NCBI GenBank assembly: GCA_937873155.1
Contig: CALMVZ010000019.1
Location: forward strand, 1 to 50,920
Source: an uncultured Bacteroidota bacterium
Lineage (GTDB): Bacteria > Bacteroidota > Bacteroidia > B-17B0 > Aurantibacillaceae
Length of the DNA: 50,920 nt
Reading direction: 5' to 3'
Part shown: positions 10,941 through 38,103 of the stretch, piece after piece
How the letters are laid out: each line of letters starts with the position of its first letter
How positions within the stretch are numbered: position 1 is the stretch's first letter
The notes under the pieces: model-generated
Told to the model about the DNA's origin: nothing
Databases searched by the model: none
The model's input: only the letters and a program-made list of their open reading frames with translations
Translations under genes and position numbers: made by a program

Positions 10941-13900
10941 TTAAGTCAATTCCCTGGTAACATTTCCAATGCGATCTAATTCAAATAAAAAATCCTCACT
11001 TATCGCAACTTTATATCCTTTAGAATGAAGTTTCACAGAAATATTCTCGCTTTGGTCTTCCACAAAAAACTCAACATGGCTTTTGCCGTTGTATTGTTTA
11101 AAGAGATTTTCTAAATTGGTTACAAGTTCGTCTGTAAGATTGCTAAGATCGATTTTTACTTTAATATTATTAAAAGCACTTTCTTTTACATCAGCCAATA
11201 ATTCTATCTTCTGTAATTTTAATTCCAGGCTTCCGGGTTGATTATATCTTTCCTGAACTTTAGCTCTAATAAATACTGAAAGTCCTCTTGCTTCAATATT
11301 AGTAAACCTGATGTATTCAAGGAAATCTTTTCCAAACAACATAATTTCAACTGTTCCGTGATAATCTTCGATCATCAACTTGCCAAACTTATTTCCGGTT
11401 TTGCTTTCCCTTACTTCGTTTCCAACAATAATTCCTCCAAATATCACTTCCCGCCCCTTAAAAGGTTCTAATCCGGCTTTAAGCTGTAAACAATTAACAT
11501 TGCTTTTGTGTTCAATAACTAATTTATATTGATCCAGGGGATGTCCGCTGATAAAAAAGCCAACAACTTCCTTTTCCCGGTTTAATTGTTCAATTGTATT
11601 CCACGGCTCTACTTTCGGTAATTGAGGTTCTGTAACCTGGATCTCATCTTCACCACCAAATAAACTTGCCTGGGACGTATCAGTACCATTATTCATCTGG
11701 TTACCGTATTTAATAACGCGGTCTGTTAAAGTTGTATTATCGGCTTCCGGTTTAAAGAACATAGCACGGTGTAGTCCTTCAAAACTATCAAAAGCGCCGC
11801 TTAAAGCTAATCCTTCTATTGATTTTTTATTGATCGCTTTGCTGTCTAAACGTTTTGCGAGATCAAATACAGAGGTGAATTTTCCATTCTTCTTGCGTTC
11901 TTCAACTAACATATTGATCACATTCTCACCAACACCTTTGATACTTGCCATTCCGAAACGTATATCGCCATTCGGGTTTACTGAGAATTTTCCATAACCT
12001 TCATTCACATCAGGGCCAAGTACTTTTATTCCCATCCGTTTACATTCTTCCATAAAGAAGGCTATCGATTCAATACTTCCTGAGTGATTTAATGTGGAAG
12101 CCATGTATTCACTCGGATAATGCGCTTTTAAATATGCAGTTTGAAACGCCACATAAGCATAACAGGTGGAGTGGGATTTATTGAATGCGTAAGACGCGAA
12201 TGCTTCCCAATCCTTCCATACTTTTTCCAGGATCTTGGCATCGTGTCCGTTCTTAGTTGCATTCTCAATGAATAATGGCTTTAGTTTGTCAAGTGTCTTT
12301 TTATCTTTCTTCCCCATTGCTTTACGCAACACATCGGCATCACCTTTTGTAAAGCTTGCTAACTTCTGACTCAAACGCATTACCTGTTCCTGGTAAACTG
12401 TAATTCCATATGTTTCCTGCAGGAATTCATCCATTCCTTCAAGATCGTAAGTGATCTTTTCACGACCATGCTTACGTGCAATGTAATTTGGAATATACGC
12501 TAACGGTCCGGGACGGTATAATGCGTTCATAGCGATAAGGTCCGTAAAACTATCCGGTTTTAATTCCTTCAGGGATTTTTGCATACCGGCACTCTCATAC
12601 TGAAAGATACCATTCGTTTCACCGCGCTGGAATAACTGGTAAGTCTTTTCATCTTCGAGGGATATCGCGTCAATATCTATTTCAACATTGTGTATTGCTT
12701 TGATGAGTTTGAGAGTGTCTTTAATAATAGTAAGCGTACGTAAGCCAAGGAAGTCCATTTTTAATAATCCCGCGCTTTCAGCAACTGAGTTATCAAATTG
12801 GGTAACGAGCATGTCACTGTCTTTACCTTTTGTTACAGGAACATATTTTACCATTTCACCCGGCGTAATAATTACACCACAGGCGTGAATTCCGGTATTA
12901 CGTAAACAGCCTTCCAATTCATAAGCCTGTTTTAAAACATCAGCTTCAGGTGTTTTTTCTTCGGCTAATTTTCTGAAAGCATAAGATTGATCAATTACCT
13001 CGCGTTTGCCTTCTATCTTTCCAAGATATTTCTGGTCTATTCCTCCCGGTTTTAATAATGCTCTCAGTTTTGCATCTAAACTATCAGGGAACATTTTGGT
13101 GAGGCGGTTAGCATCATCCAAAGGAAGATCAAGAACACGCGCTGTATCTTTGATCGCAGATTTTCCGCCCATAGTACCATAAGTGATGATCTGCGCTACC
13201 TGGTCGGAACCATATTTTTTAATTACATAATCAATAACAGCACCGCGGCCTTCATCATCAAAGTCGATATCTATATCGGGCATCGAGATACGGTCCGGAT
13301 TTAAGAAACGCTCAAAGAGGAGGTCGAACTTGATAGGATCCACATTTGTAATTCCTAAACAATAGGCAATAGCAGAACCTGCAGCTGATCCACGGCCGGG
13401 GCCAACAGAAACTCCAAGTCTGCGTGCTTCACTAATAAAATCCGCAACAATTAAAAAGTATCCGGGATAACCCATTCTTTCAATGGTGGCTAATTCGAAA
13501 TCGATCCTTTCTTTTATTTCAGGGGTCAGATCAGGATAACGTTTTGCCGCGCCCTTGTATGTAAGTTCGGTCATATACACGAACTGCTCAGCAATAACTC
13601 TCACTTCAGCTTTTTCGTGTTTGATCGCGTCTTCACTTAATTTTTTCGCGGCCCAGTCTTTTTCTTTTAAAGCACAGATCCTTCCAAATGAATCCTGTAT
13701 TGCTTGTTCGTTCGCAGAAATAAATTCTGCGGCTATTTCAAATTTTGGTAATAATACCTCACGGCCTAATTTGAATTGTTCGATCTTGTCTACAATTAAA
13801 TTTGTGTTGGTCAAAGCTTCAGGCAGATCTTTAAAGAGAGCGGCCATTTCAGCAGGGGATTTGAAATAAAACTCCTGGTTAGGCATTCCGTATCTTAAAC

Positions 13901-15419
13901 CCCTTCCATTTCCGATCTGGGTGCTTTTCTTTTCCCCGTCTTTCACGCACAATAAAATATCATGCGCTTCTGAACCTTTTTTATCAATGTAATAATTACT
14001 GTTGGCGGCGAAATAAGGAACGTTATATTTTTTAGCCAAAGCTAACAATTGAGTATTGGCGTAATCCTCATCCTGATTTTTATACTGGCGGTTCAATTCA
14101 ACATAAAAATCTTCACCGAATTGTTCTTTATACCACAGGAAGGCATTCTCGCCTTGCTGCTCTCCTAAATTAATTATAGAATAGGGTACTTCCGAATTCA
14201 AAGAACCGGTTGTTGCAATTAAGCCTTCTTTATATTTTACAAGGATATCTTTATCAATACGCGGAACATAATAAGCACCATCTATCAATCCAATTGAACT
14301 GATCCTGCAAAGATTTTCGTAACCCGTACGGTTCTTGGCGATCAACACCTGTGTGAATCCATTATCTTTTTTGGTTTTGTCTTTATGGTTCTCACAAATA
14401 TTCACTTCGCATCCGATGATGCATTTCAATTCTGTTTTCTTTTCTCCAATGATCTCGCCTTTATCGATAGAAGCGTTGTATTCTTTTATCTTTTTATTCT
14501 GGCTATCTATTTCCTTCCAGAATAAAAAAGCACCGTACATATTCCCATGATCTGTTAAAGCAACACCCGGACTTTTAAATTCAATGGCTTTATTTACTAA
14601 TGAAGAAACATCACTCGTTGATTGTAAAACTGAAAACTGGGTATGATTATGGAGATGACTGAATTTAAAATCAACATCAGTATCTACTGCTTCAGAAATC
14701 TTCGCGGCTTCTTCTTTTTCTTTTGCAGCTGCTTCTTTTGCTTTGCGGTCTCTCCAGTACTGTTCGTGTTTTGAAAGTTCAGTAAAATCCGGAGCAACAT
14801 AATTAATAGTTGGTAAAAGCTCTGAAGTGATCTCAGCAACTTTTGTAATTCCCCTTTTAATGATCTCAAAGAAAACTTTAGAAGTAGCAGCCACGTCGAA
14901 TGCAGCGTTGTGAGCTTCTTCAAATGCCGTATTAAATAATTTATGATGAAGTTCGGTCAACGTAGGCCATTTGAATTTTCCGCCTCTTCCTCCCGGAATA
15001 GCGCAATATTCAGTGGTCTCATCATTCTTAGTATCAATAAAAGCTTTTCCCTGTAATACATTTGGCAAACCACAACGGAGAAATTCAGCTCCGATGATGT
15101 TCATGTCAAATTCAATGTTGTGTCCGCACAAATAAGTTGTTTTCGCGACTACATCGGCAAATTGCTGCAAAGATCCTTTTAAATTCTTTCCTTCTTCATT
15201 AGCACGCTCGTTAGTGATACCGTGGATCTGGATCGTAGCAAAAGGAATAGAATACCCTTCGGGTTTAATGATGATAGTGTCGTTATGTAAAAGATTACCT
15301 GTAGCATCATGCAATTGCCAGGCGATCTGCACCATTCTCGGCCAATTATCAAAATCAGTTAAAGGAGCGTTGTAATTCCTTGGTAAGCCTGTTGTTTCGG
15401 TATCGAATATTAAGAACAT
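10941..15419 (-). CDS. dnaE: DNA polymerase III alpha subunit with fused N-terminal proofreading exonuclease
   Basis: Replicative polymerase of 1492 residues, clearly longer than E. coli DnaE (1160). Residues 1-180 are a DnaQ-like DEDDh 3'-5' exonuclease with all key residues: D6 and E8 (FDTETTG), D105 (HNIEFD), H170 and D175 (AHNAAFD). A Lys/Glu/Ala-rich linker follows. The PHP domain starts near 253 and keeps the metal-binding HLHNHT motif and LTDHGN. The polymerase core shows GPGRGSAAGS and the catalytic PDIDIDFDDEGR; the C-terminal part has the OB fold (EVIFGGIIVGNEVRESK). Proofreading is therefore encoded in cis. The gene sits between a bPH2 gene (29 nt upstream) and a phosphatase gene (directly abutting). 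Confidence 0.97.
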   Translation of the reverse strand: MFLIFDTETTGLPRNYNAPLTDFDNWPRMVQIAWQLHDATGNLLHNDTIIIKPEGYSIPFATIQIHGITNERANEEGKNLKGSLQQFADVVAKTTYLCGHNIEFDMNIIGAEFLRCGLPNVLQGKAFIDTKNDETTEYCAIPGGRGGKFKWPTLTELHHKLFNTAFEEAHNAAFDVAATSKVFFEIIKRGITKVAEITSELLPTINYVAPDFTELSKHEQYWRDRKAKEAAAKEKEEAAKISEAVDTDVDFKFSHLHNHTQFSVLQSTSDVSSLVNKAIEFKSPGVALTDHGNMYGAFLFWKEIDSQNKKIKEYNASIDKGEIIGEKKTELKCIIGCEVNICENHKDKTKKDNGFTQVLIAKNRTGYENLCRISSIGLIDGAYYVPRIDKDILVKYKEGLIATTGSLNSEVPYSIINLGEQQGENAFLWYKEQFGEDFYVELNRQYKNQDEDYANTQLLALAKKYNVPYFAANSNYYIDKKGSEAHDILLCVKDGEKKSTQIGNGRGLRYGMPNQEFYFKSPAEMAALFKDLPEALTNTNLIVDKIEQFKLGREVLLPKFEIAAEFISANEQAIQDSFGRICALKEKDWAAKKLSEDAIKHEKAEVRVIAEQFVYMTELTYKGAAKRYPDLTPEIKERIDFELATIERMGYPGYFLIVADFISEARRLGVSVGPGRGSAAGSAIAYCLGITNVDPIKFDLLFERFLNPDRISMPDIDIDFDDEGRGAVIDYVIKKYGSDQVAQIITYGTMGGKSAIKDTARVLDLPLDDANRLTKMFPDSLDAKLRALLKPGGIDQKYLGKIEGKREVIDQSYAFRKLAEEKTPEADVLKQAYELEGCLRNTGIHACGVIITPGEMVKYVPVTKGKDSDMLVTQFDNSVAESAGLLKMDFLGLRTLTIIKDTLKLIKAIHNVEIDIDAISLEDEKTYQLFQRGETNGIFQYESAGMQKSLKELKPDSFTDLIAMNALYRPGPLAYIPNYIARKHGREKITYDLEGMDEFLQETYGITVYQEQVMRLSQKLASFTKGDADVLRKAMGKKDKKTLDKLKPLFIENATKNGHDAKILEKVWKDWEAFASYAFNKSHSTCYAYVAFQTAYLKAHYPSEYMASTLNHSGSIESIAFFMEECKRMGIKVLGPDVNEGYGKFSVNPNGDIRFGMASIKGVGENVINMLVEERKKNGKFTSVFDLAKRLDSKAINKKSIEGLALSGAFDSFEGLHRAMFFKPEADNTTLTDRVIKYGNQMNNGTDTSQASLFGGEDEIQVTEPQLPKVEPWNTIEQLNREKEVVGFFISGHPLDQYKLVIEHKSNVNCLQLKAGLEPFKGREVIFGGIIVGNEVRESKTGNKFGKLMIEDYHGTVEIMLFGKDFLEYIRFTNIEARGLSVFIRAKVQERYNQPGSLELKLQKIELLADVKESAFNNIKVKIDLSNLTDELVTNLENLFKQYNGKSHVEFFVEDQSENISVKLHSKGYKVAISEDFLFELDRIGNVTRELT

Positions 15420-17535: not shown

Positions 17536-18603
17536 ATGACAGGTACTTTAGATATAACCATTGAAAAAACTGCAAAAAGCAGGATAAAAGATCAGGATGT
17601 GAATAACGTTCCTTTCGGGAAAGTTTTTTCTGATCACATGTTCGTAGTTGAATATGCTGATGGTAAATGGCAAAAAGGAATTATTACACCGTATAGGGAT
17701 ATCCCGATGAGCCTTGCGCTTTCTGCTTTGCATTATGGACAAGCTATTTTTGAAGGCATGAAAGCCTATAAAAATGAAGCGGGGGAAATAGCACTTTTCA
17801 GACCGTTAGATAACTTTAAACGTTTGAATATTTCAGCAGTAAGGATGGCAATGCCTGAAATTCCTGAGGAATTATTCATGGGTGGTTTAATTGAATTGTT
17901 GAAGATGGATAAAGACTGGGTGCCAAGTTCTGAATCCGGAAGTTTATATATCCGTCCGTTCATGATCGCTACTGACGAAGCTATTGGTGTAAAAGCAAGC
18001 GATACTTATAAATTCGTTATCATTACTTGTCCTGCCGGTAAATATTATTCCGAGCCGATCAAGGTAATGGTGGAAACTAATTATTTCCGCGCGGTTGAAG
18101 GTGGTGTGGGGTTTACAAAATGTGCAGGTAATTACGGAAGAAGTTTATTCCCGACAAAATTAGCCCAGCAAAAAGGATACCAGCAAGTGATCTGGACCGA
18201 CGCGAAAACGCATTCTTTCCTCGAAGAATCAGGAACTATGAACTTAATGTTCGTGATCGATAATATTTTAGTTACACCTGCAACCAGCGATACTATTTTA
18301 GCAGGTGTTACCCGCGACAGTGTTTTGCGTTTAGCAAGGGACTGGGGAATGTTAGTGGAAGAACGTAAAGTTTCAATTAAAGAAATTTTTGATGCGCATA
18401 AAGCAGGAAGATTACAGGAAGCATTCGGCGTGGGAACAGCTGCAACCATTGCGCAAATTGTTACTATTGGTTATGAAGGAAAAGATTATGAATTACCTCC
18501 TGTAGAACAACGTAAATTCTCACCTAAAGTGGACCAGGCTTTACGCGATATAAGAAAATGCAGAACGGACGATAAATTCCGTTGGACAATGAAGGTAGCT
18601 TGA
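17536..18603 (+). CDS. ilvE: Branched-chain amino acid aminotransferase
   Basis: PLP-dependent class IV aminotransferase that interconverts Leu, Ile and Val with their 2-oxo acids. I chose the ATG at 17536 (MTGTLDITIEKTAKSR, 355 residues); an 11-residue upstream extension from TTG is less likely. Family features: ALHYGQAIFEGMKAY, LYIRPFMIATDEAIGVK, the PLP-lysine region GFTKCAGNYGRSL, FLEESGTMNLMFV and EAFGVGTAATIAQI. Length and motifs fit the eukaryote-like (type II) BCAT group. The gene has its own strong terminator. Together with the 2-oxoacid dehydrogenase at 32367 it suggests branched-chain amino acid catabolism or branched fatty-acid precursor supply. Confidence 0.95.
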   Translation: MTGTLDITIEKTAKSRIKDQDVNNVPFGKVFSDHMFVVEYADGKWQKGIITPYRDIPMSLALSALHYGQAIFEGMKAYKNEAGEIALFRPLDNFKRLNISAVRMAMPEIPEELFMGGLIELLKMDKDWVPSSESGSLYIRPFMIATDEAIGVKASDTYKFVIITCPAGKYYSEPIKVMVETNYFRAVEGGVGFTKCAGNYGRSLFPTKLAQQKGYQQVIWTDAKTHSFLEESGTMNLMFVIDNILVTPATSDTILAGVTRDSVLRLARDWGMLVEERKVSIKEIFDAHKAGRLQEAFGVGTAATIAQIVTIGYEGKDYELPPVEQRKFSPKVDQALRDIRKCRTDDKFRWTMKVA

Positions 18604-18616
18604 TAATTTCGTGTTT

Positions 18617-18698
18617 GTTATTTCGGGTTTCGGGTTGTTCCGGAACCCGATTTTTTTTTTTACCATTATATAACCCGAAACTCTAAACCCGAAATAAC
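18617..18698. repeat. Inverted repeat around the ilvE terminator
   Basis: Perfect 14-nt arms GTTATTTCGGGTTT (18617-18630) and AAACCCGAAATAAC (18685-18698) enclose the ilvE terminator. The arms belong to a degenerate AACCCGAAACCCTAA-type repeat also present at 28291-28319 inside the WbqC-family gene. Confidence 0.6.
18631..18661 (+). terminator. Intrinsic terminator of ilvE
   Basis: CGGGTT (18631-18636) and AACCCG (18644-18649) form a 6-bp stem with a 7-nt loop, followed by eleven T residues (18651-18661). It lies 27 nt after the ilvE stop. Confidence 0.85.
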
Positions 18699-18706
18699 TA
18701 ATGTTA

Positions 18707-18911
18707 CTAGTGAACGAAATAATTAAGAATTCCTGTTAGAATAAGAACTACACCTGATGGTTCGGCAAGCTCACCATGACAACCTAGTGTATAAAGAAGT
18801 TCAACATACCTGTTAGGATTAGAACTATTCCTGACGGTTCGGCAAGCTCACCATGACAACCTAGTGTATAAAGAAGTTCAATATACCTGTTAGGATTAGA
18901 ACTATTCCTGA
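18707..18911 (-). repeat. Three 77-bp-period copies of a gene 3' end
   Basis: The last 16 codons plus stop of the transporter-like gene occur three times at an exact 77-bp period: 18707-18757, 18784-18834 and 18861-18911 (the last is the true gene end). A 26-nt spacer carrying CGGCAAGCTCACCATGACA separates them. Copies two and three are almost identical. The outermost copy differs at 14 of 51 positions, yet 8 of the 11 changed codons are synonymous and the other three are conservative (Val/Ile, Tyr/Phe). Confidence 0.9.
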
Positions 18912-19481
18912 AACAAGACCTGCATTGTGTTCTAATTTGTGAGCGTTTATTTTCTTTAAGATCTTTTTGGCAAATGAGAGCCAGATGATTATTCCCGCAA
19001 CAGAGATAACGATGTAAAGAATACTGATCAGGAAAATATATTTCACTCCTGCTGTTCCTGCCAAAACAAAATAACCTTCAATTTCGAGGCATGGTGATAA
19101 GAACATACTTGTGACCAAAACCGTAATGATCTTTTTGGAACTCATTTTTCGGATCTCATCTTCGTTGTGTAAATGAAAGTGATGATGTGTATGATGACGG
19201 ACAATGAATATCAAACCTAAAACAATTAAAATTATAGAAGATATCAGCTTTGAAATTTCCTCAAAATGTGCGCTTACTTTAAAACTTAACAAACCAATTG
19301 CTATTCCTAAAATAACTGTACTTAAAGCATGCGCAAGAGCTGAAATAATAGTGATCTTAAAAGTCTGTTGATTGGTCCATCCGAATTTTTTCTCAAACGC
19401 CAGGATAGGTATCCAATGACTTGGGATCAGAGCATGCAAAATGCTTATGGTTAAAGTACCTATGAGAAGTTGCGTTATCAT
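18861..19481 (-). CDS. Polytopic membrane protein with His-rich loop, possible metal-cation exporter
   Basis: A 206-residue protein with about six membrane segments. The first carries HALIPSHWIPI, and a cytosolic or periplasmic loop has many histidines (RHHTHHHFHLHNED). A second conserved-looking motif is MFLSPCLEIEGYF. The arrangement resembles the NicO/RcnA nickel-cobalt or LysE/TauE-like exporter superfamilies; I judge this by topology and the His loop, not by a firm motif. No metal regulator is adjacent. The 3' end is duplicated twice downstream in an array with a dispersed repeat, so the gene end has been rearranged. Confidence 0.7.
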   Translation of the reverse strand: MITQLLIGTLTISILHALIPSHWIPILAFEKKFGWTNQQTFKITIISALAHALSTVILGIAIGLLSFKVSAHFEEISKLISSIILIVLGLIFIVRHHTHHHFHLHNEDEIRKMSSKKIITVLVTSMFLSPCLEIEGYFVLAGTAGVKYIFLISILYIVISVAGIIIWLSFAKKILKKINAHKLEHNAGLVSGIVLILTGILNFFIH

Positions 19482-38078: not shown

Positions 38079-38097
38079 TGTCATGGTGAGCTTGCCG
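38079..38097. repeat. Dispersed 19-nt repeat core next to a stop codon
   Basis: The reverse complement of CGGCAAGCTCACCATGACA, the core of the array spacers at 18763-18781 and 18840-18858. Here it lies directly after the CCC-motif gene stop, in the opposite orientation relative to that gene. Confidence 0.75.
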
Positions 38098-38103
38098 CAC
38101 AAC

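Follow-up and report, generated by a model that had tools for sequence, protein, structure and literature searches.

Three copies of a gene end around a dispersed REP-like repeat, with probable mixed ancestry, in an uncultured Bacteroidota bacterium

A membrane-protein gene of an uncultured bacterium in the family Aurantibacillaceae terminates in a tandem array that presents its last 16 codons and stop three times, with a dispersed repeat in each spacer. The array is probably the meeting point of two species-level alleles. One would comprise the gene body and the gene's own end, the other the outermost end together with its downstream flank, which resemble a congener. Such a site would stem from allele exchange between related bacteria, after which the 77-bp unit was duplicated. 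Coordinates refer to the window, the whole stretch of 50,920 nucleotides that was analysed. Its source genome is G000 and the seven congeners are G001 to G007.

Anatomy of the array and its counterparts in the genus

The gene (18861..19481, minus strand, from the ORF list) encodes a transporter-like membrane protein of 206 amino acids with a His-rich loop. It has no confident family assignment; Pfam matches fall only below cut-off, NCBIfam gives none, and for four distant homologues the family matches are likewise below cut-off or absent. On the same strand the final 16 codons of the gene and its stop, termed c3 (18861..18911), are followed by a spacer (18835..18860), a middle copy c2 (18784..18834), a second spacer (18758..18783, identical to the first at 25 of 26 positions) and an outermost, diverged copy c1 (18707..18757). 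The three ends are spaced 77 and 77 bp apart, and the coordinates thus confirm the exact period claimed in the sequence-only reading of this DNA. With E the 51-bp gene end and U the combination of E and a 26-bp spacer carrying the repeat, the array has the form U-U-E. A terminator-like intergenic inverted repeat (18614..18701, no strand assigned), partly common to G002, separates c1 from the convergent gene for a branched-chain amino acid aminotransferase (17536..18603, plus strand). Because the membrane-protein gene is left with an intact end at every stage, the array is probably neutral.

The middle copy is 50/51 identical to c3. With spacers included (18759-18834 against 18836-18911) one base in 76 differs, in agreement with the single change in more than 70 bases noted earlier. 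It is a young tandem duplicate, as the proposal of a repeat-mediated duplication had it. The outermost copy is of a different kind. It departs from c3 at 14 of 51 bases spread over 11 codons, with ten of these changes at third positions. Eight of the changed codons are synonymous and the other three conservative (Ile/Val twice, Phe/Tyr), counts that match those given previously. When 14 changes were placed at random, three or fewer amino-acid changes resulted with a frequency of 0.0002 (100,000 placements).

The membrane-protein gene is present in 13 of 60 genomes including its own, among them all eight of the genus. Each of these 13 has a single match, apart from G004, in which two contigs each hold part of the gene. 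A paralogue, which had been offered as one source of the replacement, is therefore unlikely as the origin of c1 or c3. The search for a relative whose full gene ends in the outermost version, put forward as a check, was successful in G002. The intact G002 end matches c1 at 47/51 bases and 16/16 amino acids, the four differences all being at third positions, and differs from c3 at 15/51 bases. The ends of the other congeners are 14 to 21 of 51 bases distant from c1. For comparison, the ends of G002 and G003 are separated by 14 differences, those of G003 and G004 by 12 and c3 from that of G004 by 13, each of 51. Because the intact end of G002 matches so closely and with no amino-acid difference, c1 probably served as a functional gene end, constrained as coding sequence, until not long ago. 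The ends c1 and c3 have separate coding histories. We considered c1 as a fossil, the unchanged ancestor of c3, and rejected this since outgroup states are mixed at the 14 sites that separate the two.

No second gene end was found within 400 bp downstream of the gene in G001, G002, G003, G005, G006 or G007. The downstream-copy scores of these six are 7 to 11, with shuffle maxima of 13 to 16, against 49 for both G000 and G004. In G004 the order is gene end, 12 nucleotides, repeat, gene end, the two ends being 50/51 identical; gene end, repeat, orientation and place all agree with those of the duplication in G000. The array repeats of the two genomes differ at 2/25 or 3/25 positions. Neither this structure nor the presence of the dispersed repeat in every spacer had been mentioned in the sequence-only reading, which named as its refutation a three-copy array with equal divergence in relatives; none of the seven congeners has one.

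On both sides of the array the gene order in G000 is that of G002. The intergenic block beside c1 is common to G002 only (five congeners aligned, G001 left out), and in G003 about 730 bp of different sequence occupy the site.

The dispersed repeat

Both 26-bp spacers are copies of a dispersed repeat with the core GGTTCGGCAAGCTCACCATGACA on the plus strand; in the spacer next to the gene, TGTCATGG starts 2 nucleotides past the stop codon. The source genome holds 26 copies at up to three mismatches, while a reversed control gives none, and the window has three matches against none in 100 shuffles. The repeat occurs in five of the eight genomes of the genus and, at up to two mismatches, in 11 of 87 in the family. 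Inverted pairs, most of them spanning 140-150 bp, account for many of the copies; others are single. The third copy in the window, which is degraded, abuts the stop of a 137-codon open frame at 38079-38103.

Single copies tend to lie at the stop codons of genes (for example L001 2170-2194, L018 625-649, L021 639-663, L023 668-692 and L024 611-635). Considering open frames of at least 60 codons, or 40 where cut by the end of a stretch, a stop codon falls within 5 nucleotides of the CCAT side in 13 of 26 single copies as opposed to one of 45 paired copies in the fetched loci (Fisher 2e-6). In nine of the 26 the stop is at distance zero or overlaps. At the TGTC side a stop is found in three of the 26, two of them from the G000 array. 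Behind one pair of orthologous genes the repeat (L005 1499-1523 in G000, L082 1501-1525 in G002) has a core identical at 22/22 positions in surroundings that are 82-86% identical, and the repeat may be under constraint there in the mRNA end.

A single copy folds weakly, at -0.4 to -3.8 kcal/mol (four forms, calculated without shuffle control). GTAG, the terminal tag of REPs, is present in two of 26 single copies (L001 and L024), and ATGG or GTGG in 17. No copy of the repeat lies within 1.5 kb of the four Y1_Tnp genes of the genome (22-mer, up to seven mismatches). With many copies, a weak hairpin of its own and Y1 transposase genes that do not have it nearby, the repeat is REP-like, and for the latter two reasons we stop short of calling it a proven REP. 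The array has the repeat and its flank reiterated head to tail, as in a tandem REP cluster.

We examined 49 repeat elements in the genus, excluding one more at a contig edge, and clear duplication of the flank is seen at the membrane-protein gene only. The two G000 array copies score 49.5 and 15.5 and the G004 element 49.0. Of the other 46, L066 (13.0) and L059 (12.5) are just above a shuffle maximum of 12.0 each and 44 are at or below theirs, which leads us to reject the idea that the repeat duplicates its flank as a rule. Outside the genus four of 18 copies, from 12 stretches in six genomes, score well above shuffles (L130 1005, L131 1245, L131 1798 and L132 633). These are not clean cases because repeats of similar kind adjoin one another there. 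At L130 960-1200, in a genome from another genus of the family (G093), a related repeat and its flank form a 121-bp tandem duplication; the flank is 58 bp, with 53 matches, and itself holds further repeats.

Two alleles in one array

Where the ancestry of the sequence changes was assessed from third-position identity with G002. This is 13/16 for c1, 6/16 for c3, 96/190 for the gene body and 213/355 for the aminotransferase gene. The outermost copy differs from the body (Fisher p = 0.020) and c3 does not (p = 0.44), so the ancestry step appears to lie at c1 rather than between body and c3. Such a position would speak against replacement of the gene end alone. The body is less similar to G002 than is the aminotransferase gene (p = 0.037). 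Counting against our preferred explanation, the difference between c1 and the aminotransferase gene is not significant (p = 0.12). Without the stop codon c1 is identical to G002 at 45/48 bases. This level is reached by 2.4% of 340 16-codon windows of the aminotransferase gene aligned between G000 and G002, by 1.8% of 1471 windows of dnaE and by none of 191 windows of the membrane-protein gene.

The trees are less decisive, and synonymous sites are near saturation between most of the seven congeners. The body tree sets G000 outside the group of G002, G003 and G004, though with low support (65/82), and a constraint that unites the four is not rejected (p-AU 0.21). For the aminotransferase gene the tree has G000 together with those same three (64/74). 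The contrast between the two genes is weak because the aminotransferase data do not reject G002, G003 and G004 grouped without G000 (p-AU 0.3). Both genes reject G000 and G002 as sisters (p-AU 0.006 for the aminotransferase gene, 0.021 for the gene body) and c1 therefore agrees with neither neighbour. The rpoB gene, present in six of the eight genomes and missing in G002 and G004, was left out. In dnaE (10941-15419) G000 goes with G002 (86% amino acid identity) and G003 with G004, unlike in the aminotransferase gene; the genes of the genus have conflicting histories.

Since c1 was probably constrained until recently, and its distance from c3 is like that between the ends of different species, we think it probable that two species-level alleles meet in the array: the body with c3, and c1 with the G002-like downstream flank. 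At the outset the repeat would have stood next to the stop codon of one allele, probably in the E-repeat-E arrangement that G004 shows. Recombination with an array-free allele would then have joined the repeat to the end of the other allele at TCAGG, the start of E, and c1 would have been stranded outside the gene. Finally, slippage or unequal exchange would have doubled the 77-bp unit to give c2. The repeat-to-end junctions read CCATCAGG and CCGTCAGG in G000 and CCATCTGG in G004. In G000 TCAGG directly follows the repeat at both outer ends and also opens the end inside the gene; the corresponding words in G004 are TCTGG and TCGGG. With both outer ends beginning in this way, slippage or exchange at TCAGG would explain the 77-bp unit and c2. 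A copy of the repeat downstream of a different gene in G002 is followed by CAGG, giving CCATCAGG there also.

The order of these steps and the donor are what we infer; either the gene body or the outer tract may be the newcomer. Of the earlier suggestion that c1 is the end of a diverged homologue, once under selection and left behind when the gene body was replaced, the first part is supported in the form of a G002-type allele. Replacement of the body is not established by its tree; the data agree nearly as well with a short stretch of G002-like sequence that came in from downstream.

Several other explanations should be considered. Could reads from two co-occurring species have been merged to give a chimeric end? 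Short repeats can mislead assembly, the G000 assembly is rated 4.29% contaminated and its contig C20 carries a second, distant rpoB (L122, 72-74% identical to the genus type), apparently a sign that some DNA of another organism has entered the bin. The matching duplication in the separate assembly of G004 argues against assembly error, as does the G002-type gene order on both sides, with the caveat that both are still compatible with two merged strains. We regard an artefact of assembly or binning as unlikely.

Equally, G000 and G004 might have acquired the repeat at one place in separate insertions, through a site-directed mechanism that copied the last 16 codons on each occasion. The gene is indeed the same in both, as are the orientation and the position of the junction, and the ends are one base in 51 apart within each genome against 13 between c3 and G004, when the repeats have only two or three differences in 25. 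However, G000 and other congeners also retain the repeat, little changed, at orthologous sites; between G000 and G002 it has stayed in place where the surroundings diverge. The two arrays may accordingly be shared by common descent and homogenised by turnover, or may have two origins; shared ancestry with array turnover explains the data equally well, and no other gene among the 49 elements shows the duplication. Independent insertion is to our minds also an unlikely event. A broader proposal has site-directed insertion at gene ends bringing a copy of the target tail and leaving the gene intact, independently at the same place in two species, with recombination among the stored ends able to swap the C-terminus between alleles. 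This we hold to be quite improbable.

A single old duplication in one lineage would require no gene transfer and no second allele, the outer copy having drifted free while the gene's own end changed synonymously, and G004 does offer a duplication with two near-identical ends. A free copy should gain amino-acid changes though, and c1 has none compared to G002 and three compared to c3, making this hardly probable. Integrative elements such as prophage e14 in icd duplicate the 3′ end of a gene, and an element targeting this gene with its own synonymous version of the end would leave c1 as the displaced original. The likeness is real, in that a displaced end, with synonymous differences, lies beyond the gene. 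A scar of this type is nevertheless very improbable given that the ends are separated by no more than 26 bp, which contain a dispersed repeat, hence no element, integrase or cargo, and that there is no ancestry step between body and c3.

Comparison with described REP arrays

Tandem REP and REPIN clusters that include flanking DNA are on record in PMC3116915 and PMC3733652. Their likeness to the present array is in a short dispersed repeat reiterated in tandem with its flank in near-identical units. The array differs in having the terminal part of a coding gene as its flank and, on our preferred reading of two alleles, a last end that derives from another species-level allele. Single REPs that touch a stop codon or lie a few bases from one also appear in PMC12306157 and PMC3733652, and the former discusses REPs within 15 nucleotides of stop codons and ribosome stalling. 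The single repeats of the G000 type, at or near stops, resemble these. The array repeat is unlike them, facing the opposite way with its TGTC side to the stop and being followed by another copy of the gene end.

Preserved by the dispersed repeat at its junction, the array is a condensed trace of what was probably recombination between related species at the end of a gene. Should there be further arrays of this kind, dispersed repeats would act as recombination joints from which past exchanges of alleles can be read. Judged by its sequence, the array is a variant of the described REP arrays, made distinct by a gene end as the repeated flank and by apparently mixed ancestry.
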